Below, piece by piece: positions 7,772 through 21,731 of a stretch of 64,000 bases of DNA. Below the pieces are notes generated by a model, which saw nothing but the letters and a program-made list of their open reading frames with translations, did not search any database and had not been told where the DNA came from. Source of the DNA: Williamsia maris (GTDB taxonomy: Bacteria > Actinomycetota > Actinomycetes > Mycobacteriales > Mycobacteriaceae); the NCBI RefSeq assembly GCF_024171815.1, contig NZ_JAMTCJ010000004.1, positions 868,001 through 932,000 on the forward strand, in the 5' to 3' direction. How positions within the stretch are numbered: position 1 is the first letter of the stretch; each line of letters begins with the position of its first letter. Made by a program: the position numbers and the translations under genes.

Positions 7772-7780
7772 GAAGAGAAA

Positions 7781-7818
7781 ATAGCGCCCCACCTGCAGAT
7801 TCGCGGGTGGGGCACTAT
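7781..7818 (+). terminator. Element-supplied hairpin downstream of tRNA-His
   Basis: The arms 7781-7793 and 7806-7818 form a 13-bp stem with a single mismatch and a 12-nt loop, 10 bp after the tRNA. A short TCGTTTC follows rather than a T run. It probably replaces the chromosomal terminator displaced to 21736 by integration. Confidence 0.55.
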
Positions 7819-7832
7819 TCGTTTCGAGCTCG

Positions 7833-7841
7833 ATGCATTGA
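7833..7841. repeat. Candidate integrase arm-type site, attL side
   Basis: ATGCATTGA occurs 62 bp inside the attL core and again at 21598-21606 on the attR side. Short repeats shared by both attachment arms are typical of tyrosine-integrase or Xis binding sites. No binding evidence exists. Confidence 0.3.
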
Positions 7842-7857
7842 GTCCTGCATTAGCCGC

Positions 7858-9096
7858 TTATGTCGCACCGCTGATAGCGGCACTGAACCGGTCGACCGCC
7901 GCCTTCTGCATGGTCGGCGTGACGTGCGAGTAGACGTCCATTGTCGTCGTGATCGTCGAGTGCCCCAGGCGCTCCTGCACCACCTTCGGGTTCTCCCCGT
8001 TCTCCAGCAGAATCGTCGCGTGAGTGTGGCGCAGTCCGTGCAAACCGATCGCGGGCAACGCGTCCGACCCGAGTTTCTGGCGAGCCTTGTCGACGCGGCG
8101 GCTGAACATCTGCGACGTCGAGATCGGATTGCGCGGCGACCCGTCGAGCGTGCCGAACACGTATGCGTCGGCGCGCGCGAACCCCAAGGACAAGGCACCG
8201 CGCTCGGCCTTCCACTGACGCAGCACGCGCACTGTCGTCGCGTCGATGTCGAGCACGCGGGCGCGGTCTGACTTGGTGCCCTTGACCTCCCCAGGGCGAG
8301 CGGTGTCGAGCGCGCGGCGTACCTGGATTCGCTGAGCGGTGAGGTCGATGTCGCCCCACCGCAGCGCCAGCACTTCCGAGCGTCGCACTCCCGTGTGCGC
8401 GACGACCCACCAGAGTGCGTGCACCTCGTCACGCATGGTGTCGCGATTCCAGCTGAGGAACGCTCCGAGCTGCGAGCCGCTCCACGTGACCATCTCGCCG
8501 CTCCGCTCACGCTGCTGGCGCTTCACCTCCTTCATCGACGGAGCCTTCACCCCCTTAGTACGCGCGGGGTTGAGAGCGATCAGGCGGTCGTCGCGCGCTG
8601 CCTCCAACATCGCCGAGACTGCGACGTGGACCTGATGTACCGACGTCTTGGACAGCCCACCCGCTGCTCGCTGACGCGACGGGTCGGGCATCTGCAGGTC
8701 GGCGTACAGCTTGCGCAACCTCGTCGTGGTGACGCCGTCGAGTCGCAGGTGGCCAATGGACGGGTTGACGTGGATAGCGAAGATACGTCGATACCCGGCG
8801 AGAGTGGCAGCCGCCAGATCAGCACGAGAGTCCAGCCAGCGGGTCGAGTAGTCGCTGAACGTAGGCACTTTCGCCGCGAGGTCTACTCCCGCACGCAGCT
8901 GCGCACGCGCCGCCTGCATTGCATCGTCGGCCTGCTCTGATGTTGCAAAACCGCCCTTGCCCGCGTATTTATGCGGGCCGTTGGGGTCCTCGGGGTCAGC
9001 GGGGACCCAGAGCTGGTACCGCCACCTTGTGCCCGCCTTGATCGAGTACTTGACCACCGTGCCTACGCGTGCCGCTCGGGACTTGCGCTGAGTCAT
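7858..9096 (-). CDS. int: Tyrosine site-specific integrase
   Basis: 412 aa. An N-terminal arm-binding region (~1-75) and core-binding SAM-like domain (~75-190) precede the catalytic domain, with R238 (TGVRRSEVLALRW), H353-x-x-R356 (GLHGLRHTH), H379 (RLGHS) and nucleophile Y389 (MDVYSH). All key catalytic residues are present. It lies 86 bp from attL and reads toward the tRNA, as in mycobacteriophage-type integration modules. The start ATG overlaps the stop of the upstream gene by 4 nt, so translation is probably coupled. It should catalyse insertion at and excision from tRNA-His. Confidence 0.95.
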   Translation of the reverse strand: MTQRKSRAARVGTVVKYSIKAGTRWRYQLWVPADPEDPNGPHKYAGKGGFATSEQADDAMQAARAQLRAGVDLAAKVPTFSDYSTRWLDSRADLAAATLAGYRRIFAIHVNPSIGHLRLDGVTTTRLRKLYADLQMPDPSRQRAAGGLSKTSVHQVHVAVSAMLEAARDDRLIALNPARTKGVKAPSMKEVKRQQRERSGEMVTWSGSQLGAFLSWNRDTMRDEVHALWWVVAHTGVRRSEVLALRWGDIDLTAQRIQVRRALDTARPGEVKGTKSDRARVLDIDATTVRVLRQWKAERGALSLGFARADAYVFGTLDGSPRNPISTSQMFSRRVDKARQKLGSDALPAIGLHGLRHTHATILLENGENPKVVQERLGHSTITTTMDVYSHVTPTMQKAAVDRFSAAISGAT

Positions 9097-9650
9097 TTTG
9101 CTGCACTCTCGTTGTCGTCCTGGTTGGCCGTTGCAGTGGCCCAGTCGCGGCGCAAGAACCCGCGTCGCTTAGCTTCTGCAATCCACTTGTCAACAGTGGG
9201 TTTCGACGCCTGCGCATGAGCAGCGACATACTCACGGGGCGACGCCCCGTTCTCGCGAGCCGTCATGAGCAGGAGAGCCACCTGTCGGTAGTGCGCGTCG
9301 TCGCGCTTGTTGCCCCGTCCACCAGGGCTGCGCTCGGGCCGCAATATCAAGGTGGGGTCGTCGATTTCAGCGATCGTCGTGAACGCGCCATCTCCGTACG
9401 CCTCAAACTTGGCGGCAGACTCAGCCAGTCGTCGGACGGGAATCTGGCGCACGGTGATCGGCCCGATGTCCGCAGAGTCGTCGGGCGAGACGATCCGCAT
9501 CTCAACGAGGCGCGGGGCAGCACCCGACCTGTCGACGCGGACCTGATAGCGGTGTTCATGGCCGACGAGCTGAATCTCGATGAGGCCGTCGGCAAGTCGG
9601 TCGATGTTCTGGACATCGCCCTTGATCGAGCTGGCGTTGTAAGTAGTCAC
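9093..9650 (-). CDS. Unknown element protein with C-terminal helix-turn-helix-like region
   Basis: The frame is open from ATG 9716 (207 aa). I favour GTG 9650 (185 aa) because a TATAGT box at 9662-9657 sits exactly 6 nt upstream, a leaderless layout, whereas ATG 9716 and ATG 9674 have poor ribosome sites. The first ~110 residues look like a beta-rich ligand or scaffold domain. The C-terminus (HYRQVALLLMTAREN, then YVAAHAQASKPTVDKWIAEAK) resembles a helix-turn-helix ending in a basic tail. It precedes int with a 4-nt overlap, which fits a regulator of integration or of the divergent promoter. No family is recognised with certainty. Confidence 0.6.
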   Translation of the reverse strand: MTTYNASSIKGDVQNIDRLADGLIEIQLVGHEHRYQVRVDRSGAAPRLVEMRIVSPDDSADIGPITVRQIPVRRLAESAAKFEAYGDGAFTTIAEIDDPTLILRPERSPGGRGNKRDDAHYRQVALLLMTARENGASPREYVAAHAQASKPTVDKWIAEAKRRGFLRRDWATATANQDDNESAAK

Positions 9651-9664
9651 AAAAAGACTATAAC
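9637..9664. promoter_or_regulatory. Overlapping divergent promoters with inverted-repeat operator
   Basis: Plus strand: TTGTAA (9637-9642), 16 bp, TATAAC (9659-9664), reading toward the xis-like and rep genes. Minus strand: TATAGT (9662-9657) followed by 6 nt and GTG 9650, reading toward int. The inverted repeat TAGTC-N7-GACTA (9644-9660) overlaps both -10 boxes. A protein bound there would block both directions, an arrangement expected of a lysogeny-type switch. Confidence 0.5.
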
Positions 9665-9756
9665 GCAATGCCATAGCAATTAGCCCTTTTTTGCGCTTGT
9701 CTTGACCCAGCGACACATAAAGCGCCCCAGGGCCACTAGAGAAGGACTACTACGAC

Positions 9757-9996
9757 ATGACTGCGCACTCTCCTACGTCAGCCCACGAAACCGGTTCTGC
9801 TCGTGTTGATCTCGACTGGCTGCGGTCGACTGGAGTTGCGGCGCTCAGCCGCCCCCAGGTCGCACAGCTCCTCGATGTGGACGAGCGCACCGTTGGTCGC
9901 GCTATCGCCGATGGGTCCCTGCCCTCGATGCGGCTCGGTCGGCGCGTGGTGGTGCCTCGGGTGCCTTTGATGCGGCTGCTCGGCATCGCCGACTGA
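9757..9996 (+). CDS. Small HTH protein, excisionase (Xis)-like
   Basis: 79 aa. The second half (LSRPQVAQLLDVDERTVGRAI, DGSLPSMRLGRRVVVPR) is the winged helix of the MerR/excisionase HTH_17 family: a helix-turn-helix then a wing with G-x-R-x-x. Such proteins bend att DNA to direct excision, or act as small repressors. AGAAGGA lies about 9-10 nt before the ATG. It is the first gene rightward of the divergent promoter and is followed by the rep gene. Confidence 0.8.
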   Translation: MTAHSPTSAHETGSARVDLDWLRSTGVAALSRPQVAQLLDVDERTVGRAIADGSLPSMRLGRRVVVPRVPLMRLLGIAD

Positions 9997-10047
9997 CCCC
10001 GCACTCCACTAGCTGAGTGCGTCTCGGACCTCAGCACCACACAGATA

Positions 10048-10079
10048 CGCCCGCTCGGCTTACGAGAGCCAGGCGGGCG
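10048..10079 (+). repeat. Hairpin in leader of rep gene
   Basis: Arms CGCCCGC (10048-10054) and GCGGGCG (10073-10079), with an inner GGCT/AGCC stem. It ends 10 nt before the ribosome site of the rep gene. With no T run, it is more likely a translational control or mRNA-stability element than a terminator. Confidence 0.4.
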
Positions 10080-10106
10080 ACGTACCCGAAAAGAAGGCCA
10101 CCACCA

Positions 10107-11564
10107 ATGACCTCCCACCACAATACCCAAATAACCGCCACTCGCGATGGCGTCACCTCGCTCGCAGCGGTGCGAAGTGACGACGTCAATCCCTACGACA
10201 ACCCCGGTGCAGCCGCTCGCGTTCGACGCGACCTCGACGAGGCTGCCGCATCCGAAGCACGGCGTAAGCGGTGGGGGCGCAACCGATACGACGTGAGCGC
10301 ACTCGTCGACAACCCAGCCCCTTGGGCACGCAAGCTCGCCGGTGCGATCGAGCGAACCGACGCAGCACGTAACCCTGTGAAGGCACCCCCGACGCTGATG
10401 TTCCTCGGGTCCAAGGCAGTCGAAGCGGGAGCAACCGACGCACAGCTCGCGCAGCTGGCGAAGCTTACGAACAACGAAATCGCCGAGGTGAAGCTGCGCG
10501 AGGCCGCGGAGCTCACCGACACGCGACGCCTGATCGACACTCTGGCGCGCAGCATGGCGACGCAGCGCGACACAGCCGTCGTTGCACCGGAACCCTTCGA
10601 CCTCACCGACCTCCTCACGCAGCCCGACGAGGATGCTGCCTATCGCATTGGCGAGCTGTGGCCGATCGGGGGCCGTGTGCTGTTGGCTGCGCCGTACAAG
10701 GCGGGCAAGTCGCACATGGTCGGAAACGTCATCCGCACCCTCGTCGACGGCGGGAAGTTTCTCGATCGTTTCGACGTAACACCCGTGCGCAAGGTGGTCC
10801 TCATCGACACCGAGCTCGACACGAGGCTGCTGCGGCGATGGTTTCGGGATCAGCGCATCGACAACACCGACGCAGTGTCGGTGGTCCCGCTGCGCGGCGC
10901 GGTGTCGACGTTCGACATCACCGACCCCGCCACGCGCTCTCAGTGGGCTCGCAAGCTCGAAGGCGCGGACGTCGTGATTCTCGACTGCCTCCGCCCCGTT
11001 CTCGACGCACTGGGGCTGTCGGAGGACAAGGACTCTGGCCGTGTGCTCGTTGCATTCGACGCGCTGCTCGCCGAGATCGGTGCCACCGAGGGCATGGTCG
11101 TCACCCACATGGGACACCAGAACGAACGCGCTCGGGGTGACTCGCGGCTACTCGACTGGAACGACGCGATGTGGAAGATCGTGCGCTCGGGCGACGACAG
11201 CGACGACGACGCCACCCGCAAGCGCTTCTTCTCGGCACTGGGTCGTGATGTGTCGCTGCCCGAGGGACAACTCACGTTCGACACAGCTACCCGACACCTC
11301 GCCTATGAGGATGGCAGCCGCAAGGACTCGACCGCCCGCGTCGCGATGCCCAAGCTGCTCGCGCTGATCAGCATGGAGCCCGGAAAGCTGTCCAAGAACG
11401 ATGCTGAGAGACGACTCAAGGACGACCACGGCATCCCGCAGCAGGCTGCTCGCGCTGCTCTGAAAAAGGCGCTCGCAGAGGGGTCGTTGGTGTTCGAGAT
11501 CGGCGACCGGGGCAAGCATCTGCTGTCTCCGGGAGGCGACCCGTTCACGGTCGCCACGGGCTAA
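10107..11564 (+). CDS. RepA-like AAA ATPase / replicative helicase-type protein
   Basis: 485 aa from ATG 10107, with AAAAGAAGG about 9 nt upstream. The N-terminal ~180 residues are helical and charged. A RecA-fold core follows: Walker A APYKAGKS at 195-202, IDTELD (~235) and Walker B VVILDCLRP (~290), as in the AAA_25/RepA family of plasmid and phage replication ATPases. The C-terminal ~90 residues resemble a winged helix for DNA binding. An array of CAGCTCGT repeats starts 8 bp after the stop, so the protein probably acts at that adjacent origin. Comparable ATPases occur in other actinobacterial prophage-like elements. Confidence 0.85.
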   Translation: MTSHHNTQITATRDGVTSLAAVRSDDVNPYDNPGAAARVRRDLDEAAASEARRKRWGRNRYDVSALVDNPAPWARKLAGAIERTDAARNPVKAPPTLMFLGSKAVEAGATDAQLAQLAKLTNNEIAEVKLREAAELTDTRRLIDTLARSMATQRDTAVVAPEPFDLTDLLTQPDEDAAYRIGELWPIGGRVLLAAPYKAGKSHMVGNVIRTLVDGGKFLDRFDVTPVRKVVLIDTELDTRLLRRWFRDQRIDNTDAVSVVPLRGAVSTFDITDPATRSQWARKLEGADVVILDCLRPVLDALGLSEDKDSGRVLVAFDALLAEIGATEGMVVTHMGHQNERARGDSRLLDWNDAMWKIVRSGDDSDDDATRKRFFSALGRDVSLPEGQLTFDTATRHLAYEDGSRKDSTARVAMPKLLALISMEPGKLSKNDAERRLKDDHGIPQQAARAALKKALAEGSLVFEIGDRGKHLLSPGGDPFTVATG

Positions 11565-11572
11565 TTCGACGG

Positions 11573-11713
11573 CAGCTCGTCAGCTCGTTACAGCTCGTTA
11601 GAACGATCTAACGAGCGCCAAATCCAGCTCGTCAGCTCGTCTATAGGGACGAGCTGAGCTGGATGGTCGAGATGGGGGCGGAGATTGAGGGTCAGCTCGT
11701 TAGCAACGAGCTG
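11573..11713. other. Putative replication origin: CAGCTCGT repeats in nested hairpins
   Basis: Six direct copies of CAGCTCGT (starting at 11573, 11581, 11591, 11625, 11633 and 11693) and two inverted copies (11649-11656 and 11706-11713). They build three perfect inverted repeats: 11593-11602/11607-11616 (10-bp arms), 11633-11641/11648-11656 (9-bp) and 11693-11701/11705-11713 (9-bp). A degenerate copy follows near 11770. The position directly after the RepA-like gene and the iteron-plus-hairpin form indicate an origin. Confidence 0.75.
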
Positions 11714-11986
11714 AACCGAAAGGGTGGTGGCACGAGCGGTGACCAGAGGCGGCGACGCCATCGCGGACACCCAGCTCGCAGGACGGGATCACCGAGCAGA
11801 ACGGAGCTGTGTTGCACCCGAGGAGCCGTGTCGGGTCCCGAGCGGTGTGCAGCGTAGGCGTTGCTCCCGGGGCTGTGTTGGGCTCTCCCCGACGAACGCC
11901 AGTGGAGTGGGAGCAGTGGGCAGATGAGTGATCGCGTCACCTCAGCGAGGCTCTCAGTGGCCGCGAGACCTCAACGGCGACAACGC

Positions 11987-12012
11987 ACAACGCCGACTTT
12001 GGCCGGCGTTGT
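11987..12012 (+). promoter_or_regulatory. Attenuator-like alternative hairpin
   Basis: ACAACGCCG (11987-11995) pairs with CGGCGTTGT (12004-12012) around an 8-nt loop. A nearby upstream CGACAACG can instead pair with CGTTGTCG in the same 3' arm, so two exclusive stems are possible. It lies 24 nt before the ribosome site of the next gene. Between the origin repeats and this site (about 11714-11970) I see no convincing gene. Confidence 0.35.
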
Positions 12013-12053
12013 CGTTCACCCTTCTGCGGTATCTGTAGGAGGTGTCCAGAACC

Positions 12054-12509
12054 ATGCCGCTCGCCGAGTCGCGCGCCCGAGCTGCGGAAGTGTTCCATCA
12101 GCGCGCCGCCGTGGGGCGTACGTGGCAGCAGATCGCGGACTCCCTCGGGTTCCGTTCGATCGGAGCTGTGCAGACCGCCTACAAGCGCTACTGCGAGTCG
12201 ATCCCGTCGCCCGCAGTCGAGGAGGTTCGTGCCGAGATTCGTGAGCGCAAGCGGATCACGAACAGCGTCGCGCTCAGCTCTCTAGTCGAGGCGAAGCGGG
12301 CGAGCGATCACCAGGCAGTGGCGCGCCTCATCGACACGATGACGCGGTCGGACGCCGAGCTTGCCAAGCTCTACGGACTCAGCAGCGAGACCGTCGACGT
12401 GAACGTCACTCAGACCTCGACGGCGATCATCGCCGACGCCCGCGAGCGGCTGCTCGCTGTGATCGACGGAGAGTTCGAGCCCACCCCCATCAAGGAGATC
12501 GACCGATGA
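12054..12509 (+). CDS. HTH protein, possible terminase small subunit-like
   Basis: 151 aa. ATG 12054 is preferred over GTG 12042, because the strong AGGAGG (12037-12042) overlaps that GTG and stands 11 nt before the ATG. An N-terminal helix-turn-helix (GRTWQQIADSLGFRSIGAVQTAYKRY) is followed by long helices and a short VNVTQTS strand, a plan seen in small terminase subunits and other phage DNA-binding proteins. The large terminase is on the other strand 3.2 kb away, which weakens that role; the small gene next to terL is an alternative. The stop overlaps the next start (ATGA). Confidence 0.55.
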   Translation: MPLAESRARAAEVFHQRAAVGRTWQQIADSLGFRSIGAVQTAYKRYCESIPSPAVEEVRAEIRERKRITNSVALSSLVEAKRASDHQAVARLIDTMTRSDAELAKLYGLSSETVDVNVTQTSTAIIADARERLLAVIDGEFEPTPIKEIDR

Positions 12510-12787
12510 CCCACCCCACCAAGCGCGACGTCGTCAACTCGGCGATGGACCTCGCGTCCGACGTGACCGAGGGACGCCTCGACCCCGACGAATTGGCGGC
12601 TGAGTTCGCTGCTGAGGCCCGAGACCTGTTCGGAGGTGTACTCGGACCCGGCGACCCGCTGTGGGAGCTGCAGCTCGACGTCACGCGCGAGGTGCTCGGT
12701 GTGGGCGGAATTGGTGCCGACGAGCTGTCCGAGTGGCTCGCGGTTGCCCGTCGTCGAGCCGAGGCTGTGGATAACCCCGCCACCTGA
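12506..12787 (+). CDS. Small acidic element protein, unknown
   Basis: 93 aa, start ATG 12506 overlapping the previous stop by 4 nt, so it belongs to the same transcript. The sequence is acidic and helical (DLASDVTEGRLDPDELAA, then ADELSEWLAVARRRAEAV) with no recognised domain. Coupling to the HTH gene suggests a partner protein, for example of a terminase or regulator. Confidence 0.6.
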   Translation: MTHPTKRDVVNSAMDLASDVTEGRLDPDELAAEFAAEARDLFGGVLGPGDPLWELQLDVTREVLGVGGIGADELSEWLAVARRRAEAVDNPAT

Positions 12788-12823
12788 GCAGTTGCAGGAG
12801 CGCCGACCTGTCAGGATCGCAGC

Positions 12824-13045
12824 ATGGACCACATTCGTCCCGACGACGCCCGCGTGATCGCTCGACAGCTGCGCGTTGCACTGCAGGCAGGCGGCAGTGG
12901 CGACGGCCCGCGCTTCTCCCCCGTTGCTCGCACTCGCATCACCGACGCGGCGATTGCAATGGAGGTCCACGGGAGCCAGTACGAACTCGGCGAGATGGGT
13001 GTACTCAAGCTTGGTCGCACGGTAAGCGATCCCGACGCGGTCTAG
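12824..13045 (+). CDS. Small unknown element protein
   Basis: 73 aa, ATG 12824 with AGGA about 8 nt upstream and 36 nt after the preceding gene. It starts MDHIRPDDARVIARQLRVAL and has no recognised domain. It has actinobacterial codon use and a ribosome site, so it is probably real, but it could be a chance frame. Confidence 0.5.
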   Translation: MDHIRPDDARVIARQLRVALQAGGSGDGPRFSPVARTRITDAAIAMEVHGSQYELGEMGVLKLGRTVSDPDAV

Positions 13046-13131
13046 CTGGGGTGTAGTCATACCAAACATCCTGTGGCGCAGTGTCCCCCGTGTATCTAGA
13101 GCCGCGTGCCCATTGTTCAACAGCCGTCTTA

Positions 13132-13159
13132 GTTTGTCCTAGAGATCAAACAGACAAAC
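13132..13159. promoter_or_regulatory. Inverted repeat before resolvase gene (possible res/operator)
   Basis: GTTTGTC (13132-13138) and GACAAAC (13153-13159) are perfect 7-bp inverted arms separated by 14 bp, ending just before the GGAGGA ribosome site. A subsite for resolvase dimers or an autoregulatory operator would look like this. Confidence 0.4.
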
Positions 13160-13171
13160 ACGGAGGACGAC

Positions 13172-13750
13172 ATGAGTGCAGGACAGACCGTTGGGTACCA
13201 GCGGGTTTCGACGATCGAGCAGAACACCGCACGCCAGCTGGACGGGCTCCAGCTCGACAAGGTGTTCACCGATCACGCCAGCGGCAAGGACACCAACCGG
13301 CCCCAGCTGCAGCTGTGCCTGGAGTATGTGCGCGATGGCGACGAGCTGATCGTGCACAGCATGGATCGGCTCGCGCGGTCGCTCGTCGACCTGCGCAGGA
13401 TCGTCGATGAGCTGACCGGGCGCGGGGTGCGTGTGCGGTTCATCAAGGAGGGCATGACGTTCGCCCGCGATTCCCAGGACCCGTGCTCGATCCTGATGCT
13501 CTCGGTGATGGGAGCAGTCGCAGAGTTCGAGCGATCGCTGACCCTGGAGCGGCAGCGGGAGGGCATCGCGATCGCCAAGCGCGAAGGCAAGTACACCGGG
13601 CGCAAGCCCTCGCTGACCGACGATCAGGTCGCGTCCGTGATGACGCGTCTCGATCAGGGCGCGTCGGCTGCAGCACTGGCGATCGAGTACGGGGTGAGCC
13701 GCGCGACCATCTACAACACCCGGGCGCGAGCAGCGGCAACGCCAGCCTGA
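13172..13750 (+). CDS. Serine recombinase, resolvase/invertase family
   Basis: 192 aa, the normal length of Tn3-type resolvases and DNA invertases. The catalytic domain has VGYQRVST with the nucleophile Ser, Ser/Lys in HASGKDTNRPQL, and the MDRLARS active-site segment. Helix E (MGAVAEFERSL, ERQREGI) follows, then a C-terminal HTH (LIEYGVSRATIYN-like, AIEYGVSRATIYN). GGAGGACGAC precedes the ATG. In a replicating element it would resolve dimers; alternatively it inverts or excises DNA. It is not the large serine integrase type, and integration is explained by the tyrosine integrase. Confidence 0.92.
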   Translation: MSAGQTVGYQRVSTIEQNTARQLDGLQLDKVFTDHASGKDTNRPQLQLCLEYVRDGDELIVHSMDRLARSLVDLRRIVDELTGRGVRVRFIKEGMTFARDSQDPCSILMLSVMGAVAEFERSLTLERQREGIAIAKREGKYTGRKPSLTDDQVASVMTRLDQGASAAALAIEYGVSRATIYNTRARAAATPA

Positions 13751-13894
13751 AGTCACGCGTCACGGGAACGTCACGCCAACCGCACGCGCGCCGCGCATTC
13801 TCCCAGCTCAGGACGAGATCAGTTCTGCAGCAACAACACCGATATTAGTAGGGATTGAGCCGGCGACCTGGCTCGACGTCGCTCCCATCGTGCG

Positions 13895-13911
13895 CAGCAG
13901 CGCCGCTGCTG
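13895..13911. repeat. Hairpin upstream of YWRC gene
   Basis: CAGCAGC (13895-13901) and GCTGCTG (13905-13911) form a perfect 7-bp inverted repeat with a GCC centre, 16 bp before a TAGTGT box. It is a possible operator or mRNA structure. The rest of the 189-nt gap holds nothing recognisable. Confidence 0.3.
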
Positions 13912-13939
13912 TGCACGGTGCCCTCCTAGTGTGAGTCTC

Positions 13940-14185
13940 GTGTCCACGATCACCGTTGCCGATCCCCTCGCCGATCCCGCGATTCTCTCGCCGATCCAGT
14001 GGGGCACCCGTCTGGCGTCCTTCAAGTCACGCATGGTCGACGAGAGTGACCCTCGCGTGGTCGAGTGCCGCGCGGCACTGGCCTACTGGCGATGCAGGCG
14101 TGCGCTCGACGCCGAGCGCGGGCACATCTCCCCCGCACACCTCGATGCCCTGATCGGACATCTGCGCGAGGCGGTGACGGCGTGA
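13940..14185 (+). CDS. YWRC-motif small protein A (paralogue of 17622-17861)
   Basis: 81 aa from GTG 13940, chosen because TAGTGT (13927-13932) lies 7 nt upstream, a leaderless layout; GTG 13931 would give 84 aa. The core reads W-x3-L-x2-FKSR-x6-PRV-x6-AL-YWRC-x2-AL. The same motif string is found in the minus-strand gene at 17622-17861 (LKSR, PRV, YWRC, AL), so the two are paralogues. No known domain is recognised. The single conserved Cys is not enough to argue for metal binding. It starts a run of four overlapping or closely spaced genes. Confidence 0.65.
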   Translation: MSTITVADPLADPAILSPIQWGTRLASFKSRMVDESDPRVVECRAALAYWRCRRALDAERGHISPAHLDALIGHLREAVTA

Positions 14186-14859
14186 GGATCACTCGTGGAC
14201 CGCGTACCCCGGCGAGCGCTGCACCCGTAGCGGTGAGTCAGGACGAGCAGCGCTTCCGCCGCCGCAAGCACCTGCTCATCACCTACGACGGCAGGTTCGA
14301 CTTGGCTGCAGAGGTCGCTGCCTTGACCGAGCCGATGGCCCGCCGCGTCGCCGGTGAGCCCCACCCTCTGAGTTACCTCCATCGCGTCGAGGACATCGTC
14401 GCTGCCGTGCATGGCGCTATCGCCACGATCTCGATGCTGCTCGTCGAGCGCGACGCCCGACGACGTACCGCCCACGTCCCGGACTCCAATCGCGCACAGG
14501 CGATGCGCGCTGTCGTTGCACTCGCCCCGCGCCCCGTCGAGCCCGAGGTCACCAACGACGACGTGCTCTCTGGTGCGTGGGCGGCGGTCCTGACCGAGTA
14601 CGCCCGCAGATACGCCCAGCCCCTCAGCGACTACCTCGCCCACGCGCGGCAGCCCGGGGACATCGACCCCGCGATCTCGGTGTCAGGCCGCGTAGAGGCG
14701 GCGTTGCGTGAGATCGACGCAGCCGCGAACGATCTTCACCGCGTCCTTAAGCGCGCCGCGTCCCTCCGCGCTGAGGCGAGCTTCACGCCGCTCAAGCAGG
14801 TGATCGCCGAGCAGCACCGCGCGACGCTCGCTGACCTCGGGGTCGAGGTCGAGCCGTGA
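14182..14859 (+). CDS. Unknown helical element protein
   Basis: 225 aa from GTG 14182, whose GTGA overlaps the previous stop. It is rich in Ala, Arg and Glu, with long predicted helices (LAAEVAALTEPMARRVAG; RVEAALREIDAAANDL; LHRVLKRAASLRAEA) and no transmembrane or catalytic signature. The layout within a tight coupled cluster suggests a structural or accessory role for the element. Function unknown. Confidence 0.65.
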   Translation: MRITRGPRTPASAAPVAVSQDEQRFRRRKHLLITYDGRFDLAAEVAALTEPMARRVAGEPHPLSYLHRVEDIVAAVHGAIATISMLLVERDARRRTAHVPDSNRAQAMRAVVALAPRPVEPEVTNDDVLSGAWAAVLTEYARRYAQPLSDYLAHARQPGDIDPAISVSGRVEAALREIDAAANDLHRVLKRAASLRAEASFTPLKQVIAEQHRATLADLGVEVEP

Positions 14860-15134
14860 CGGGCAACTACCAGTGTCCCGATTGTCGGGGACCGTCACGC
14901 AGCTGGCGCGGCTCCGTGCATGGCTGGCGGTGTGCGGCGTGCATTGAGGCGGCGATTGGACTGACCGAGGTGATCGGGCGCATGGGGCGACCCGTGCTGG
15001 GCTTCGGGCCCATCACGAGCGCTCCCCAGCGGCGTTGGGGAGGTGGGGGCCTGGTTGCGGACCGCTCCACCTCTCCGACGTCGTCAGCAAAAGCGCACCG
15101 ACCCAACAAGAACCCCACCAAGAACCGGAGATAG
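14856..15134 (+). CDS. Small zinc-ribbon-like protein
   Basis: 92 aa from GTG 14856, overlapping the previous stop by 4 nt. The N-terminus has CPDC (residues 7-10) and CAAC (26-29), a two-knuckle zinc ribbon typical of small phage proteins. The second half is Ser/Thr/Pro/Lys-rich and probably disordered. It may bind nucleic acid or act as a protein adaptor; no more can be said. Confidence 0.6.
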   Translation: MTGNYQCPDCRGPSRSWRGSVHGWRCAACIEAAIGLTEVIGRMGRPVLGFGPITSAPQRRWGGGGLVADRSTSPTSSAKAHRPNKNPTKNRR

Positions 15135-15138
15135 GTCG

Positions 15139-15711
15139 ATGACCGACATGACCCCCGAACAGCGCGTCTACATCGCCTTCCACGAGGCCGGGCACGCGGT
15201 GGCAACGGTTCTCAGTGGCGGGCGCGTGGGTATGGCGCGGATCGTCGACAACGACCCGACCACGATCGGCATGTGCGAGACCTACGACCATCACGAACGC
15301 GACGACGCCCTGATTGCGTGGGCTGGCCCCTACGCCGAGGCCCTTGCCCGATGGGGCGATAAGGGTCGCCCTGATGTGCGAACGGGGCTCCTGCAGGTAC
15401 TCGCGGCCAGCGGCAGACGCGACCAGTCCGTCATCGACCTCGCCAAGATGCGCGACGTTGGATACTCCGACGACCACCGCACCATCGAGAAACACCTCAA
15501 GACGTGCTGGCGGGCAGTGGGCGACGTCGCAACCGCGCTCATAGACGGCCCGGTCACCCACACTGATGTGACCCGGGCGCTCGGATTGTCCAGCGACCCC
15601 GAGGTGTCAGCGCACCAGCTGCACCTCATTCGGGCGGGGCGGAAGCCTGGCAGGTTCTCCGTCACCAAGGTCGGCGAGACGCTCCACGTGTCGACGCTGC
15701 TGACCGCCTGA
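15139..15711 (+). CDS. Stand-alone M41/FtsH-type zinc peptidase-like protein
   Basis: 190 aa, ATG 15139 with GGAG 8 nt upstream. The N-terminal YIAFHEAGHAVATVLSGG carries HEAGH, the zinc and catalytic motif of FtsH (M41) peptidases. A helical region with Asp/Glu candidates for the third zinc ligand follows (for example WAGPYAEALA, then RDQSVIDLAKM, which recalls the D-ligand region of FtsH). The AAA+ ATPase and membrane segments of FtsH are absent. It could cleave a helper-phage or host protein, or be a non-proteolytic relative. The motif is seen; the activity is inferred. Confidence 0.65.
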   Translation: MTDMTPEQRVYIAFHEAGHAVATVLSGGRVGMARIVDNDPTTIGMCETYDHHERDDALIAWAGPYAEALARWGDKGRPDVRTGLLQVLAASGRRDQSVIDLAKMRDVGYSDDHRTIEKHLKTCWRAVGDVATALIDGPVTHTDVTRALGLSSDPEVSAHQLHLIRAGRKPGRFSVTKVGETLHVSTLLTA

Positions 15712-15743
15712 GCGTCAAACCGAATGCACCCAACGCTCGACCA

Positions 15744-17285
15744 TCACCCGATCCGTCTGCCGTCGATCCGTCGCCGCAGAAACGCGTCCATCGACGCCAC
15801 CCGGGGAGCCCCGGCCCCGGGCACGGGCCATCCTCCTGCACCACGATCACCCAGTCGCCCCATCGGAGCGGCGAGCGTCACCCGCACTCCTGCGCTGTGG
15901 ATCAGGACGTCGTGCGCGACGACGAGCGCGGCGAGCTGATCGGGCTGGTGCTGACCCTGCTGCCACAGGACCGCCGCGTCCTCCAACGACGGGAAGCTCC
16001 CAGCCAGACGCACCGTGCCCGTCTCAAGCCCCTGCAGCAGCGCCGACGACCGCGCTACCGAGTCCCCGCGGGCTCGCCACGGGGTGATGCGCGGGCGGTG
16101 CTGGGCGTCGGGGTGCTCACGCATGTAGCGGTCGAGCGCCGTCCGCGTCACCTGGAGGTAGGTCTCGGCGGTGGTGAATCCCTCGATCGCGATCTCCGAC
16201 GCCCCCACCTCCATCGCCAACGCGACAGCAGCAGTGGCCCACTCATCGCTCGTCATCGGTCGGCTTCGATCAGCGATCAACGACGTCACACCGTCGTTGC
16301 CAAACGACGCCGCCACGAGTCCACACGAGTCCCCACGGCCTGAGTCCGAGGGGTCGACGCCCACGACCGTCATCGTGGGCGACTCCGGGGCATCAGGTAA
16401 CCGCCACTGCTCGAACCACTCTCGCTTGATCAACCCACCATCCGGGGGCGACGGGACTCCCTGGAACAGCGAGTACCAGGTTCGCTCACCAACCGAGCGC
16501 CGCATGTCGTCGAGCTGCTCAGCTGTGCGCCCGAGCGCCGAGGTCATCGCGACACCGGGAGCACGGTCGAGGTCGTCGGGGATGCCCGCCTCCGCGATCG
16601 CGGGGATGTTGATGTGGGTCCACCGCTCCCCCTCCTCGTCGAGCAGCGTTCCGATGAGATCGGCCTCGTGCCAGCGGGTGCCGATGACGACCACCGAGCC
16701 CCCGGGGTGGAGCCGCGTCATCAGAGTCGAGCGGAACTCGTGGAGGACGCGCTTGCGGTGGGCGGCGCTGTCAGCCTCCTGCGCGTTCTTGATCGGGTCG
16801 TCGATGAGCAGCAGGTCCGCGCCGAATCCGGTGATGCCCGAAAGGATGCCAGCAGCGAGCAGCCCGCCGTTGTTCCCGTCGAGCATCCACCGACCCACTG
16901 CCGTCTTATCGCCACGCAACGACAGCCCGAGCAGGTCGGAGTGCTCCGCGATGAGAGCGCGCGCCGCGTGAGAGTGCTCCTGCGCCAACGTATCGGCGTA
17001 GGACGTCAGCACCACCCGTGAGTCGGGATCGTGGCGCAGCGCCTCAATGACGCCGATCTGCGACGCCAGCACCGACTTCCCCGTGCGCGGGGGCGTGCTG
17101 ATGATGTAGCGCCCATCAGACTGCGAAATCGCCTCACGCAGCACATCCGAGATCAACGCGATGGCGGGCGTCACGACGTAACCCGGGATGATCCTCCGCG
17201 CGAGTTCTGCAGGCGTGACGGGGCTGTGTCGCCCTCTCGCCACCGAGATCGCCCGCGCCGCCGTGACTAGTGCGATGTTCGACAT
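15744..17285 (-). CDS. Phage terminase large subunit
   Basis: 513 aa. ATG 17285 is chosen because it shares a base with the upstream stop (TGATG); the longer frame to 17339 would overlap that gene. ATPase domain: Walker A STPPRTGKS (63-71), Walker B LLLIDD (158-163), coupling motif IGTRWHEADL (~201-210). The nuclease domain starts at VVGVDPSDSG with D311, and later acidic residues include IEGFTT. This is a packaging motor and head-filling nuclease. It faces the plus-strand gene run (32-nt convergent gap). No portal or capsid gene follows, unlike a complete prophage. Confidence 0.9.
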   Translation of the reverse strand: MSNIALVTAARAISVARGRHSPVTPAELARRIIPGYVVTPAIALISDVLREAISQSDGRYIISTPPRTGKSVLASQIGVIEALRHDPDSRVVLTSYADTLAQEHSHAARALIAEHSDLLGLSLRGDKTAVGRWMLDGNNGGLLAAGILSGITGFGADLLLIDDPIKNAQEADSAAHRKRVLHEFRSTLMTRLHPGGSVVVIGTRWHEADLIGTLLDEEGERWTHINIPAIAEAGIPDDLDRAPGVAMTSALGRTAEQLDDMRRSVGERTWYSLFQGVPSPPDGGLIKREWFEQWRLPDAPESPTMTVVGVDPSDSGRGDSCGLVAASFGNDGVTSLIADRSRPMTSDEWATAAVALAMEVGASEIAIEGFTTAETYLQVTRTALDRYMREHPDAQHRPRITPWRARGDSVARSSALLQGLETGTVRLAGSFPSLEDAAVLWQQGQHQPDQLAALVVAHDVLIHSAGVRVTLAAPMGRLGDRGAGGWPVPGAGAPRVASMDAFLRRRIDGRRIG

Positions 17286-17533
17286 CACGCGGCAACGCTG
17301 CCCGTGAGCGGCTCGCAGAGGTAGGTGCGCCCGTGCCACTTGGACGCGTAGATGCGTCCACTCAGGTGCAGCGCTACCGCCAGCTCACCAGCACGCCAAT
17401 TGGTGCGGGGCAGCTGCGAGCGAATGTCCGCCCACGCAACGCTATCCGGTGCGTTCTCGACGAGGGAGACGATCAGCTCGCTCACCTCGCCATCGGTCAT
17501 CGTGGTCGGGGTGCTCTCGGTGGTGCTGTGCAT
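17285..17533 (-). CDS. Small winged-helix-like protein upstream of terL (possible small terminase)
   Basis: 82 aa from ATG 17533, with AGGA about 7 nt upstream. The core (DGEVSELIVSLVENAPDSVAWADI, then LPRTNWRAGELAVALHLSGRIYASKWHGRTYLCEP) has the helix-helix-helix-wing pattern of a winged helix. It is translationally linked to terL (TGATG). Small terminase subunits usually bind packaging DNA and lie just before terL, so this is a candidate; the HTH protein at 12054 is the other. It could also be a regulator. Confidence 0.55.
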   Translation of the reverse strand: MHSTTESTPTTMTDGEVSELIVSLVENAPDSVAWADIRSQLPRTNWRAGELAVALHLSGRIYASKWHGRTYLCEPLTGSVAA

Positions 17534-17621
17534 AACGGTCCTGTTCTGGGATACGAGGCCGAATGGGGTGAGCGGAGTGACAGCTGGTCCCGCCGAGTCG
17601 GGCACAGCTGCGCGAGAAAGG

Positions 17622-17861
17622 TCAGCGACGAGGGCGGGTAGTGAGGATGTCGAGCGCCTTGTTAGCGAGCGCCTCGTCGACCGTGCCGCGCTCGACCTCG
17701 CGGAACAGAGCCGTGTGGCATCGCCAATAGGACAGCCCACTCTCGGCGGCGTCGACCCGGGGACCATCGGTCTCGCCGCGTGACTTGAGCGCCGAAAGCG
17801 TTGCCCGCCAGGATTCCATCGTGCGCGAGCTGGGATGAGTGAGTTCGAGTTGGTTGGTCAC
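17622..17861 (-). CDS. YWRC-motif small protein B (paralogue of 13940-14185)
   Basis: 79 aa from GTG 17861, with GGGG directly before it; ATG 17819 is an alternative. The core W-x3-L-x2-LKSR...PRV...GL-SYWRC-x2-AL...E-x-G matches the plus-strand protein at 13940-14185 at the same relative spacing, with a one-residue gap. The protein lies 88 nt before the winged-helix/terL pair. Two diverged copies on opposite strands flank the terminase and small-gene block. Function unknown. Confidence 0.6.
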   Translation of the reverse strand: MTNQLELTHPSSRTMESWRATLSALKSRGETDGPRVDAAESGLSYWRCHTALFREVERGTVDEALANKALDILTTRPRR

Positions 17862-17962
17862 CCCACAACTAGATCAGCTATGGGTGCACAGCAGCGTGAC
17901 ACTGCTAGCAGCTAGACCGAAACACCAGTTGCATCGAAGCCATAGCAGGAGCAGGCGATTGC

Positions 17963-18682
17963 CTACTCCCCCTCTATGAGCCCTTGGATGTACGCGACCC
18001 GGCCGGCAATATTCGCTGTGAGGTTGGTAGTTGAAACCGCAAGGTGCGGCTCGTCGTGAATGCCTTCGCCCTTCTCAGTACTGAGCAGACACGCCGCGTC
18101 GTAAAGACGCTCTCGCACCAGACGCTCGAACAATAGTTCGTAGCGTCGCGTGTACGAGGAGTTGTCGAAAACGGGATCCGTTCGATACAGAGCGGTTCCG
18201 TGATCCCGGACCACTTTCGTCGAGCCGGGCCCGCGCTCCAAGACGTAGACGAACCCTAGCCACGGCTTGATATCGCCCAGCAGACCAGCTTCGTAGGCGC
18301 GCCAGATGTCGATGGCGTTCCCGATGGCCTCTTCGGTTCGATTGTTGAAGTTGTTTCCAAACGAGCCAACCTGCGATTTGCACTCGATCGCGGCGACAAG
18401 CGTCTTTTTGTAAGTCACGACGATGTCCCAGTTTTTCGCTCTGCGGTAGAAGCCTGGGAGAGGGATGATGCCCGACTGTCGTATCTCCACGCCGTACTTC
18501 TCCAGAGGCGCGAACTCCGCCGCCACTAAGTCCTGTAACGCCGTCAGGTGTAGACCTCCGGTCACGCTGCCGCGAGTTCCTGCGTCGATCCTTCCGGACT
18601 CAACCTGCCTCTGCGTCTGCAGATCTCGTCCAGCCCAGAACGCTCGCACTGCCTCGTCAAACTCGTCCCGTGTTGCGGTCAC
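17963..18682 (-). CDS. Type II restriction endonuclease, XhoI/PaeR7I family (predicted CTCGAG)
   Basis: 239 aa, similar in length to PaeR7I. The core NWDIVV-x7-VAAIECKSQVGSFGNN then NNRTEEAIGNAIDIWRAY matches the XhoI/PaeR7I family signature, with the PD-(D/E)XK residues D86, E100 and K102. DPVF...SYTRRYELLFERLVRE later in the protein also matches the family. XhoI and PaeR7I cut C^TCGAG, so this site is inferred here. The absence of CTCGAG from the surrounding element agrees. The ATG overlaps the stop of the methylase gene by 4 nt, so methylase is made first. Confidence 0.9.
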   Translation of the reverse strand: MTATRDEFDEAVRAFWAGRDLQTQRQVESGRIDAGTRGSVTGGLHLTALQDLVAAEFAPLEKYGVEIRQSGIIPLPGFYRRAKNWDIVVTYKKTLVAAIECKSQVGSFGNNFNNRTEEAIGNAIDIWRAYEAGLLGDIKPWLGFVYVLERGPGSTKVVRDHGTALYRTDPVFDNSSYTRRYELLFERLVRERLYDAACLLSTEKGEGIHDEPHLAVSTTNLTANIAGRVAYIQGLIEGE

Positions 18683-20388
18683 GTCGCAGGTACCTCTTCC
18701 GTTAGTTCGTAATCGTGCATGTCAATTCCGTACGCCTCGCAGGCGGCCGTTGTTGCTGCCGCGACGTTGCGAGATCTGAAGGCGGCGCGGAGGGCGGCCT
18801 GCGTCGTCTCGTCGACTTCATCGAGTCGCGGCACCCTAATTCGCTTGAGGTATTGCGCTTGGAACCGCAGCGTCCCACCACGCATCCGCACGCAGTACGC
18901 CTCGATGAACGCTTGCGCCACGCGTGAGAGCAGCAGTCCACCAAGCACTTCGATATCCCACCCGTCCGAGGTGACGAAGTACAGGTTGTGGTGCGGGTAG
19001 TGGCCCCCAGGGTCGAGGACGGGGTGGATCGTGGTCTTCATGTCCTGGATCAGAAGCTTCGGCCGGTCTGTGACCCCGGGCTGCACCTTGTCGATCGTTC
19101 GGTACCACGACGACGGGTCCTTCTTCGCGACGAACCGCGCGCGCAAGGCCGGGTCGTGGCTAAGGTACGCCGCCATTTGCGGATAGTCCTCCAGAGCGAC
19201 GAGTTTGCCATCATCGCCCCACGGGTTCACGAGGTAGTTGCCCTGCCAGTCGAAGGACCCTGACATCAGGTCTCGCCGCATCGCTAGCGGAAGCATCCTG
19301 TCGGCCTCAGCAGCCGATGGATTCTTCGTCACGTAGACCTTGTCCGCACCGCTCGCGATTCCGATCGAGACTCGCGTTCCGGTTGCTTCGTCATGTAGCG
19401 GGGGGAAGGACTCATTGAGGTGCTTGATCAACGCGAGGCGCGCGGGCGAACCCGTCGGCCAGAGCTCGCCGCCCTCAAACCACGACGGCAGGCGGTGAGC
19501 CTGCACACCAACCTCGCTGAACTCGACCCACTCTGGGTCGGTCGCGGCTTTCGCTAGCGCCCGGGCGGTGGCTTCAGTGAACTCTTCTGTCGTGTCTGCG
19601 ACGAGCACCGTTCCCTGCGGGGAATTGCTCAGCACGGTGATCGCAGGGTAGGCCGACACCTTTGTTTCGAAGGCGTCGACATCGTGCATGGTCCAGACGT
19701 GGTCCATCGCGTATCTCCCGGACACGAGGGCTCGGAGCTGTGCCCCATAGCTGTTCCGCATCCATCTGTCGGCGCAGATAAAGCCGACCTTTCCCCCGGG
19801 AACCAGCATGCCCAGGGAGCGTTCGTAGAAGCCAACGTAAATGTCACCTCGACCGGTCATGGTCAGCCACGTCCGCCGGTACAGCGACGCAACGGCGTCG
19901 GGTAGATCGTCGTAACGGATGTAAGGCGGGTTGCCGACCACGATGTCGGCGGCTTGGTCGTCGGGTCCACCAACCTCATCTGTATCGAGGTCAAGCACCG
20001 TTCCAGCCGCGGGCCGAAGGAAATCGGCCTGACGAACCCACGAACACGCCATCTCAAGCGCTGCGTCGCGTGGCATACCCGCCTCCACCAGCAGCGCGCA
20101 CGAAAGCGCTCGGCAGGTTTCAACGTGCTCTGGAAGCAGGTCGTAAGCCCGAATAGCGTCATGTAGCTCCGACAACGCGGTCCCCCGGTGCCGAGCGCTG
20201 TTGATCAGCCGCTCGACGATTACCGCCAAGAACGCTCCCGATCCGCATGACGGCTCGACGAGTCGCACGGCTCCAAGATCGCGGTCAGCGGTGTAGCCCG
20301 TCAGGTCTAGGATCACCTCCACGACCCAGCGCCTAGTGAAAACCTCGCCGGTTGCGCGAGCGACCTGAACGGTCTCCGCGACTGTCAT
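18679..20388 (-). CDS. N6-adenine DNA methyltransferase of the XhoI/PaeR7I-type RM system
   Basis: 569 aa. SAM motif I EPSCGSGAFL (45-54) and catalytic motif IV NPPY (153-156) in the gamma-class order. The C-terminal half (WDIEVLGGLLLSRVAQAFIEAYCVRMRGGTLRFQAQYLKRIRVP) is the target-recognition region typical of stand-alone N6-A methylases such as M.PaeR7I. It protects the cognate site, predicted CTCGAG, and is coupled to the endonuclease downstream. The 188-nt gap upstream probably holds its promoter, but I see no clear boxes and no controller (C protein) gene. Confidence 0.9.
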   Translation of the reverse strand: MTVAETVQVARATGEVFTRRWVVEVILDLTGYTADRDLGAVRLVEPSCGSGAFLAVIVERLINSARHRGTALSELHDAIRAYDLLPEHVETCRALSCALLVEAGMPRDAALEMACSWVRQADFLRPAAGTVLDLDTDEVGGPDDQAADIVVGNPPYIRYDDLPDAVASLYRRTWLTMTGRGDIYVGFYERSLGMLVPGGKVGFICADRWMRNSYGAQLRALVSGRYAMDHVWTMHDVDAFETKVSAYPAITVLSNSPQGTVLVADTTEEFTEATARALAKAATDPEWVEFSEVGVQAHRLPSWFEGGELWPTGSPARLALIKHLNESFPPLHDEATGTRVSIGIASGADKVYVTKNPSAAEADRMLPLAMRRDLMSGSFDWQGNYLVNPWGDDGKLVALEDYPQMAAYLSHDPALRARFVAKKDPSSWYRTIDKVQPGVTDRPKLLIQDMKTTIHPVLDPGGHYPHHNLYFVTSDGWDIEVLGGLLLSRVAQAFIEAYCVRMRGGTLRFQAQYLKRIRVPRLDEVDETTQAALRAAFRSRNVAAATTAACEAYGIDMHDYELTEEVPAT

Positions 20389-20576
20389 CGAACTATCCAG
20401 ACCACTTCGAAATCAGACACGTGACGATGATGCACTACGCAACGGACATCCCGGGGGCCGCCGCTCCGTCGCCAAGACTCGGTGCAACGGAACCCACGTC
20501 AGGCAGGGCATCGTCAGAATTGGGCGCACGGCCCTCCGCTTGCAGGTCTGAACTGCGGCCGCCGATCAAGGTGCAC

Positions 20577-21536
20577 CTACTCGTCGCCGTAGCCGTTTGC
20601 GTAGGTCGCCTCCGGTAGCGGTTCAGGTACATACTTCTTGTCGTCCGGGTGGTGGTAGATGCACTCACTAGCCATGTCGACCGTGGTCTCGTTGATGAGC
20701 TTCTCGTACGCGGTGGAGCCCTCCTGAGCGACGTCGAACGCACCCGACCAGACTCGCTCGACGGGCACTCCCGCTTCTACAAGCGGAGCAATATCGCTCA
20801 TGACCAGACCCAGCTTCCTTGTCACCGGAAACGTAATGCCCCACGCAGTCATAAAGCCCACACCCATTTCCGTCGCGCCGTCCTCTGGCTGACGCACAAG
20901 TCCTACTGGCGCGTCGTTGGTGATAAGCGATCGCTTGTCGAAGCGAACCAGCGTCCAGGGCCTGCCAACGAGGTACTTCACCAGCTTCTCGGGTAGTTCG
21001 GCCATCTGTTTGATGTGGACGGGTGCGGGGACCCTGTACGGCCCCTGGGGGTTTGCCGCTTGTTCTCGATACCTTGCGGCCTGCTCGTCATTTAGGTCGA
21101 GGCCGAGTCGGCGTTTCGCCCACGGCCGCGCACGGTCGCCGCTTGCTGCCATTGCCTCTAGCCGCGCCATCTGAGCAAGCATGTGTCCGAGCATTTTGCG
21201 TTGGTCTGGCCCCCGCACCGCTTGCATTGCCAAGAAGTACCCAAGTTCTAGCCGCTGCTCCTCGGGAAGAGGCCAGACTCCGTCGACGATCGACCGGAAG
21301 ATCGATGCTGCACTTGACTCGACCGCGGCCAGCGCCTTTTCGATGACGTCCGGCCCTTCGGGGTGGTCCTGAACTGTGTAGAAGTGGTTCGTCGCGGCAG
21401 TCTTACCAATTACCTGGGTGAATCGCTTGTCGCCCGGTAGACGGACCGTCGTGATTCGCTCGTCCATATCGGCGAAACCACGGAGGTAGAACTTGGGCAC
21501 TGTGTGGTGCAGCTTCGCGATGTTTGGCACTGCCAA
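20577..21536 (-). CDS. DUF4238 family protein
   Basis: 319 aa. The N-terminal HHTVPKFYLRGFAD, then TNHFYTV, and the internal ITNDAPV...TFPVTRKLGLVM are the signature blocks of DUF4238. That family of unknown function is common in accessory regions of bacterial genomes and often sits near restriction systems or mobile genes. No signal peptide or transmembrane segment is seen. Codon use and base composition look somewhat less GC-rich than the host genes, as for the neighbouring RM genes. It lies between the methylase and attR, the usual cargo position. A defence or toxin role is only a guess. Confidence 0.8.
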   Translation of the reverse strand: MAVPNIAKLHHTVPKFYLRGFADMDERITTVRLPGDKRFTQVIGKTAATNHFYTVQDHPEGPDVIEKALAAVESSAASIFRSIVDGVWPLPEEQRLELGYFLAMQAVRGPDQRKMLGHMLAQMARLEAMAASGDRARPWAKRRLGLDLNDEQAARYREQAANPQGPYRVPAPVHIKQMAELPEKLVKYLVGRPWTLVRFDKRSLITNDAPVGLVRQPEDGATEMGVGFMTAWGITFPVTRKLGLVMSDIAPLVEAGVPVERVWSGAFDVAQEGSTAYEKLINETTVDMASECIYHHPDDKKYVPEPLPEATYANGYGDE

Positions 21537-21584
21537 CCTCGTGGTCGTCTACAGGTTCGTTCAGCTTGCCGATGCATGGAGCTG

Positions 21585-21606
21585 TGCATTGCGGGCAATG
21601 CATTGA
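21585..21606. repeat. Palindrome and candidate arm-type site, attR side
   Basis: TGCATTGC-GG-GCAATGCA (21585-21602) is a perfect inverted repeat that runs into ATGCATTGA (21598-21606), the 9-mer also found at 7833-7841. Further GATGCA copies occur at 21571, 21617 and 21690. These are candidate Int/Xis binding sites. The 173-nt stretch 21537-21709 contains no gene. Confidence 0.35.
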
Positions 21607-21709
21607 TTGGTTCCACGATGCATCAGGATGTCGGAGTAGGCGAGCTGCCACGCTGGTCAACGAGAGTATTTGGCATCTCTAGGTGGGCCGATGCAGGCCC
21701 GTGACACAA

Positions 21710-21731
21710 GTTCGAGTCCCGTCATCCACCC
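21710..21731 (+). repeat. attR core (22-bp direct repeat)
   Basis: Exact copy of the tRNA-His 3' end at 7750-7771. The sequence before it is unrelated to a tRNA, so this is an attachment-site remnant and not a second tRNA gene. It marks the right end of the element. Confidence 0.92.

Follow-up and report, generated by a model that had tools for sequence, protein, structure and literature searches.

Does a mobile element that carries a restriction-modification (R-M) operon lack the site of its own enzyme because of that enzyme? The question is raised by a satellite-like element integrated in the genome of Williamsia maris, at positions 7772–21731 of the 64,000-nucleotide stretch analyzed here (hereafter the window; contig NZ_JAMTCJ010000004.1). 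It encodes a predicted XhoI-type R-M pair and contains not one CTCGAG, the site that its endonuclease is predicted to cut. The comparisons described below indicate that the loss of CTCGAG goes with membership in the satellite family rather more than with carriage of the operon, because most siblings in which no operon was found are depleted too and XhoI-type loci elsewhere stand at the density of their hosts.

CTCGAG and other palindromes in the element

Counting gives 0 CTCGAG for the element, as the original prediction had read by eye, and the nine flanking sites that it listed (639, 1137, 1263, 1857, 4608, 5733, 6210, 7134, and 21945) are exact; the first eight, offered as a minimum for the left flank, are all the sites that exist to the left of the element. 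The last two, which bound it, lie 14,811 bp apart; in 326,040 bp sampled from the host itself, gaps between sites reach 7,141 bp at most. The host sample (264 sites) leads to an expectation of 11.3 sites for the element (Poisson P 1.2e-5), the whole genome (3,709 sites in 4,931,535 bp) to one of 10.5 (P 2.8e-5). Markov models of the element itself expect 12.8 (order-2) and 10.8 (maximal-order) sites, and a codon null, built from 2,000 synonymous-codon shuffles over 11,991 bp of its coding sequence (CDS), expects 5.9 (standard deviation 2.1), none of the 2,000 shuffles reaching zero. Some correction is due for the fact that many motifs are open to a reader and one of 64 palindromes was reported; however, both P values apply to a single motif fixed beforehand by the encoded enzyme, and the deficit is replicated in relatives, which leaves chance hardly credible.

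The loss is not unique to the predicted site of the encoded enzyme, because GGCGCC is equally absent (0 copies vs. 7.3 under the codon null, again with no shuffle of 2,000 at zero, and 14.5 at host expectation) and four further palindromes, CCATGG, GCCGGC, CGGCCG, and CCGCGG, are low (P 0.006–0.014 under the codon null, in a count of the 64 palindromic hexamers). When near-elimination is defined as an observed/expected ratio below 0.1 with an expectation of at least 5, it applies to CTCGAG and GGCGCC only among 20 testable palindromes. The earlier statement that the loss is specific thus stands in one part, since the similar palindrome GTCGAC is kept (19 copies, found 0–2 bp from the coordinates quoted for it), and falls in the other: the count of all palindromic hexamers upholds the zero for CTCGAG and places the elimination of GGCGCC beside it. 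Within the CDS, GTCGAC is commoner than codon shuffling predicts (18 vs. 8.9). Two degenerate sites were considered as avoided supersets, namely those of AvaI (CYCGRG) and SmlI (CTYRAG), and both were ruled out, CCCGGG (11 vs. 7.7) and CTCAAG (8 vs. 4.5 for the host) not being low in the element.

The host genome (4.93 Mb in five contigs) is not depleted, the sampled DNA holding 264 CTCGAG vs. 213.7 (order-2) or 309.5 (order-4) expected. Since the host keeps normal numbers of the site, the loss predates the residence of the element there.

Siblings without the R-M operon and XhoI-type loci elsewhere

Relatives were collected with the terminase large subunit (TerL) of the element, which found a match in 23 of 201 genomes of the family and 24 of 397 of the order; 29 TerL regions (19 + 10) were fetched, weaker matches being left aside. 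Nine siblings, which have TerL and three or more of the other backbone genes, were retained. The 20 regions in which TerL is accompanied by at most one other gene were left out as prophages or unclear, among them G166 (3 CTCGAG in 20 kb; G and L numbers are our handles) and the CTCGAG-poor or CTCGAG-free L067, G421, and G397. In the fetched regions of the nine siblings tblastn gave no match to the endonuclease or the methyltransferase; an endonuclease protein search of the 201 family genomes matched only the own genome and G020, and a search with PF04555 of the order genomes, apparently the set already used for TerL, gave no match in G494 or G388. Five siblings are bounded by repeats of 24–45 bp and measure 13.2–15.0 kb; the other four were counted as cores only, because no attachment (att) repeat was found. 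The best-matching pair of satellites has 3.9 kb in common, with a nucleotide identity of 77%, and the remaining pairs have less, so that most of them represent separate histories.

Pooled, the nine siblings contain 14 CTCGAG vs. 70.5 at host density (P 2.6e-16) and 58.8 by the Markov model. The repeat-bounded members G147 (0 vs. 11.4 at host expectation), G494b (0 vs. 6.5), G157 (2 vs. 11.9), and G177 (3 vs. 10.8) and the cores G388 (0 vs. 7.3), G119 (0 vs. 5.1), and G494a (0 vs. 4.2) contribute to this deficit. A second satellite, L018 of Mycobacterium innocens, does bear the R-M genes; its 8.5 kb, truncated at the contig ends, contain no CTCGAG vs. 2.7 at host density.

The deficit is of a particular kind. 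In 11 satellites 40 of 196 palindromic hexamers are near-eliminated, and the nine in which no R-M genes were found account for 35 of 164. The non-palindromes of these satellites give 6 of 7,719 (Fisher P 7e-60), and near-elimination affects none of the 391 palindromes tested in 17 windows of own-host DNA and none of 87 in five stretches that flank siblings. This satellite family is thus one whose integrated members are mostly swept of restriction palindromes. CTCGAG itself is near-eliminated by the strict definition in the window element, G147, and the G388 core, most others expecting fewer than 5 copies. Among 105 Leu-Glu pairs in the ten satellites other than G094, only 3 are written CTC-GAG vs. 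25.6 expected from their own codon usage; CTG-GAG, CTC-GAA, TTG-GAG, or CTT-GAG are used instead. A deficit that is limited to palindromes and removed by synonymous change is the pattern that restriction selects for. Which palindromes are eliminated varies from one element to the next in a nearly all-or-none manner, and the codon-shuffle model shows the same mosaic. Indeed, G177 keeps GGCGCC (17 vs. 15.7) and is low in CCGCGG (3 vs. 22.8), G147 shows the reverse (GGCGCC 0 vs. 10.9, CCGCGG 22 vs. 25.5), the G494a core keeps GCCGGC (42 vs. 38.6) and lacks GGCGCC (0 vs. 6.7), and the CDS of G494b is free of CCGCGG, GCCGGC, GGCGCC, GTCGAC, CCCGGG, and GGGCCC save for one GGCGCC. Several of these palindromes are cut by enzymes that were originally discovered in actinobacteria (SacI, SacII, SalI, NaeI, NarI).

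An inherited composition would be another source of the deficit, if the donor lineage was poor in CTCGAG for reasons other than restriction and the element has not yet ameliorated. Such actinobacteria exist, the S. tricolor genome having only 390 CTCGAG in 8.8 Mb and G433 163 in 7.0 Mb; however, the Markov and codon-shuffle models of the element already absorb its composition, the deficit is confined to palindromes, and siblings show it in hosts that are not CTCGAG-poor, which makes this explanation very unlikely.

Phage relatives were examined in the same way. A related terminase is encoded by 19 contigs of phages or prophages (viral_contigs loci from L093–L129 only, minus overlaps, short contigs, and those of low G+C), in which 29 of 363 palindromes are near-eliminated; 27 of the 29 fall in four contigs (L111, L118, L121, and L122; 27/68) and the other 15 contigs account for 2/295. 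Two of the four, taken whole, have 13 of 22 (L118, IMGVR_UViG_3300042345_000385) and 7 of 8 (L122, IMGVR_UViG_3300032246_000595) testable palindromes near-eliminated.

An alternative is that the XhoI-type enzyme of the element purged it, by cutting copies that are still unmethylated during fast replication or at entry, before methylation is complete. In the order, 16 of 397 genomes have an XhoI-family gene, and in the class 8 of 394 do. Within 5 kb either side of the XhoI-type gene, 26 loci hold 73 CTCGAG vs. 78.9 at host density; this set includes one record twice and the satellite L018, and the 24 loci without these hold 65 vs. 74.4 at own-host density, single loci scattering both ways. An early impression of depletion at L016, L018, L019, and L020 did not survive the counts in their hosts, S. 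tricolor being itself poor in the site. Relative to their hosts, XhoI-type loci that lack the satellite backbone show no depletion, the nine satellites without detected R-M genes are collectively depleted, and no enzyme for the equally lost GGCGCC is seen in the element. For these reasons the absence of CTCGAG no longer serves as evidence for the specificity of the encoded enzyme, as the original prediction had proposed; the comparison of relatives with and without R-M genes, from which a contrast might have come, finds the depletion in those without as well.

Several counts nevertheless weigh against cargo-independent loss and in favor of some action of the enzyme. Both R-M-bearing satellites lack the site (0 vs. 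14.2, Markov), although they are only two and their contrast with the R-M-less satellites (14/58.8) is weak (P 0.048). Against the Markov model the 24 XhoI-type loci are depleted (65 vs. 136.6). In 22 loci off the satellite family (L213, L020, and L018 were left out of this count and L216 was never in the list) the R-M genes themselves contain 8 CTCGAG vs. 24.0, the lowest z of the testable palindromes, and the neighboring genes 59 vs. 89.0 (P 0.037 for the difference from the R-M genes). Moreover, the family is not uniform: the sibling G094, from the genus of the host, is not depleted (8 vs. 10.8) and has none of 20 testable palindromes eliminated, and the core G029 (1 vs. 2.4) is too short for a verdict. 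The enzyme of the element may have added slightly to the loss, whereas it appears improbable as the main cause. The avoidance within the R-M genes is modest independent evidence that the XhoI-type family targets CTCGAG, and the specificity of the enzyme is better predicted from its PF04555 membership, its identity to PaeR7I-type enzymes, and the avoidance in R-M gene pairs.

Several genomes with XhoI-type genes are themselves poor in CTCGAG. With the reversed sequence GAGCTC as control for the genome counts, the hosts of L217 (G433) and L226 (G779) have 163 vs. 1,608 and 348 vs. 2,057 copies genome-wide, as if the system were old there. An integrase relative lies near the XhoI-type genes of L221 and L223, and so other mobile elements may be among these loci.

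Gene content and the R-M operon

The features of the element are listed in Table 1. The tyrosine integrase together with the 22-bp att repeats at tRNA-His, and a packaging gene (TerL) without a recognized set of virion genes, are features by which satellites are recognized, and the gene outline resembles that of a capsid-less phage satellite integrated in tRNA-His. TerL is the sole PHROGs head or tail match among the 17 open reading frames (ORFs) of the window scanned, a scan that divergent virion genes and ORFs below 70 residues could escape; in the siblings the PHROGs scan covered 13 of 70 predicted ORFs.

Table 1. Position and assignment of the element, its integration site, and its predicted genes (window coordinates; HTH, helix-turn-helix).
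Feature	Coordinates	Strand	Basis
CTCGAG-free integrated satellite-like element	7772..21731	.	13,960 bp including right att copy; bounded by 22-bp repeat
tRNA-His(gtg), integration target	7698..7771	+	ARAGORN
attL, 3' end of tRNA-His	7750..7771	+	exact 22-bp direct repeat, spacing 13,960
attR	21710..21731	+	exact 22-bp direct repeat
Tyrosine integrase	7858..9096	-	PF00589 1.5e-24, phrog_1 4.6e-69
Small protein adjoining integrase	9093..9716	-	tblastn: common to siblings G147, G177, G494b, G388; no family match in profile scans
AAA_25 ATPase, primase/helicase-like replication protein	10017..11564	+	PF13481 2.7e-17, phrog_2597 DNA primase 1.3e-06
HTH protein, satellite backbone	12042..12509	+	phrog_645 (label RNase E); kept in siblings
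phrog_27872-type small protein, satellite backbone	12506..12787	+	4e-31; kept in siblings
Serine resolvase/invertase	13172..13750	+	PF00239 1.7e-35
Backbone protein without PHROG match	14065..14859	+	tblastn matches in siblings
Peptidase M50B-like backbone protein	15043..15711	+	PF13398 2.7e-07
Terminase large subunit (TerL)	15744..17339	-	phrog_38 1.4e-83; 55% identity to mycobacteriophage Dori TerL
XhoI/PaeR7I-family Type II restriction endonuclease	17963..18682	-	PF04555 3.4e-48, 164.5 bits (cut-off 25 bits)
N6-adenine methyltransferase, Eco57I/TaqI type	18679..20388	-	NPPY motif visible; PF07669 5.2e-17; PADLOC MTase_II 6.2e-192
DUF4238 protein, cargo adjoining R-M operon	20577..21536	-	PF14022 8.9e-38

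The R-M operon and the DUF4238 gene form the right end of the element. The methyltransferase gene is the first of the operon and overlaps the endonuclease gene by 4 bp, and this arrangement, a PF04555 endonuclease with an adjoining adenine methyltransferase whose gene comes first, is that of XhoI/PaeR7I systems; what differs here is carriage by a phage satellite, as in L018 of M. innocens, and a specificity that is predicted from sequence. Endonucleases of this kind have the catalytic motif D...ExK, and residues D86, E100, and K102 belong to a set of 30 alignment columns whose residue is the same in 25 or more of the 26 sequences, so the catalytic residues appear intact. The enzyme is about 40% identical to PaeR7I-type enzymes on plasmids and 68–76% identical to those of Streptomyces, Catenuloplanes, Mycobacterium innocens, Amycolatopsis, and Luteimicrobium. 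Pattern-based scans, which reach close relatives only, gave no match to the endonuclease in 50,697 phage records and none to the endonuclease or methyltransferase in viral_contigs. The DUF4238 gene weakly matches the PADLOC DUF4238-Pers model (1e-08) and is possibly further defense cargo. Among the siblings, G094 (L054 6969-20181, with L187) has an ApeA-like cargo gene and a different primase, and G147 (L055 4317-6007) has a protein with HTH and M78-peptidase parts, RmrA-like in PADLOC, and a DUF4411 protein; the cargo genes of G147 sit at the end away from the integrase, suggesting a cargo slot.

An R-M system without under-representation of its own site has been read as recently acquired (Rusinov 2015, PMC4687349), and by this argument the undepleted host points to a recent arrival of the operon. 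An endonuclease relative was found in none of the seven other genomes of the host genus examined, one of which (G094) has a satellite of the same family.

Entry selection as the proposed cause

We consider that the sites were cleared because Type II enzymes of many hosts selected against them whenever the element entered, and that the operon is not needed to explain the loss; we give this reading a probability of roughly three in four. The element would bring its own integrase, replication ATPase, and TerL and borrow the particle of a helper phage, and would consequently enter a cell as naked, foreign-modified double-stranded DNA. In each new cell it would meet the Type II restriction of the recipient and be cut where the enzyme matches, so that over many transfers through actinobacterial hosts the sites of the most-met enzymes would be removed, mostly synonymously, and a small element could lose every site of a given enzyme. 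CTCGAG and GGCGCC would be the sites gone from the window element. Hosts with XhoI-type systems were probably among those met, and we infer that their enzymes caused the loss of CTCGAG. The original suggestion of a long exposure to XhoI-type restriction, as if the element had to survive entry unmethylated, is in line with the palindrome-only elimination, the synonymous Leu-Glu changes, and the undepleted host. The XhoI-type operon would then be exchangeable defense cargo, carried without risk. Indeed, lacking CTCGAG, the element should be uncuttable by its own endonuclease in any methylation state, which would make the operon safe to carry, while unmodified DNA of helper or rival phages would be cuttable. 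Antiviral hotspots in satellites are the subject of a 2022 paper by Rousset (PMC9122126).

Restriction-site avoidance is already known in phages and plasmids. According to Rusinov et al. (2018, PMC6286503), Type II sites are near-eliminated (compositional bias < 0.1) in double-stranded DNA viruses, which is ascribed to selection at entry, and notably fewer sites are eliminated in temperate than in non-temperate phages, which is ascribed to the prophage period; the integrated satellites, in contrast, show elimination of the non-temperate kind (40/196), whereas 15 of the 19 phage or prophage contigs examined above show very little (2/295). According to Shaw et al. (2023, PMC10359461), small broad-host-range plasmids tune their sequence rather than carry protection, and the avoided 6-bp targets track the taxonomic distribution of the enzymes. 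The satellites differ from these plasmids in being chromosomally integrated and probably particle-borne, and the window element moreover combines the absence of the site with a methyltransferase predicted to act on it. A word search of the 2018 and 2023 texts found no mention of satellites, and among open-licence PMC papers no report was found of site avoidance in satellites or phage-inducible islands.

Candidate mycobacterial phage-inducible chromosomal islands (PMC10654092) and the Streptomyces satellites MiniFlayer and MulchRoom (PMC10690885) resemble the element in a size of 10–20 kb, a tRNA-associated integrase, a replication gene, a terminase gene, and exchangeable cargo. They are, however, defined by, or encode, a major capsid protein, and none is recognized in the window element, which a definition by integrase and capsid (PMC10654092) would therefore miss. 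The isolated satellites P4, MiniFlayer, and MulchRoom each lack CTCGAG, like the element, and have 1 of 11, 1 of 12, and 1 of 8 testable palindromes eliminated, a weaker signal of the same sign from few testable sites.

An element without the site of its enzyme and an element without the site because of its enzyme are two separate ideas, and the siblings without the enzyme, together with the XhoI-type loci without the backbone, show that the second cannot be concluded from the first. It is possible, though by no means assured, that integrated satellites are purged as deeply as lytic phages, unlike the published pattern for temperate phages, and that their missing palindromes form a near all-or-none record of the enzymes they have crossed; small size, movement between species as unmodified DNA, and fast replication before packaging would favor such deep purging. 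If the pattern holds widely, it questions the view that long chromosomal residence relaxes the selection by restriction, missing palindromes would offer a cheap test of the restriction systems met, and the host range and transfer history of satellites might be read from the palindromes they lack.

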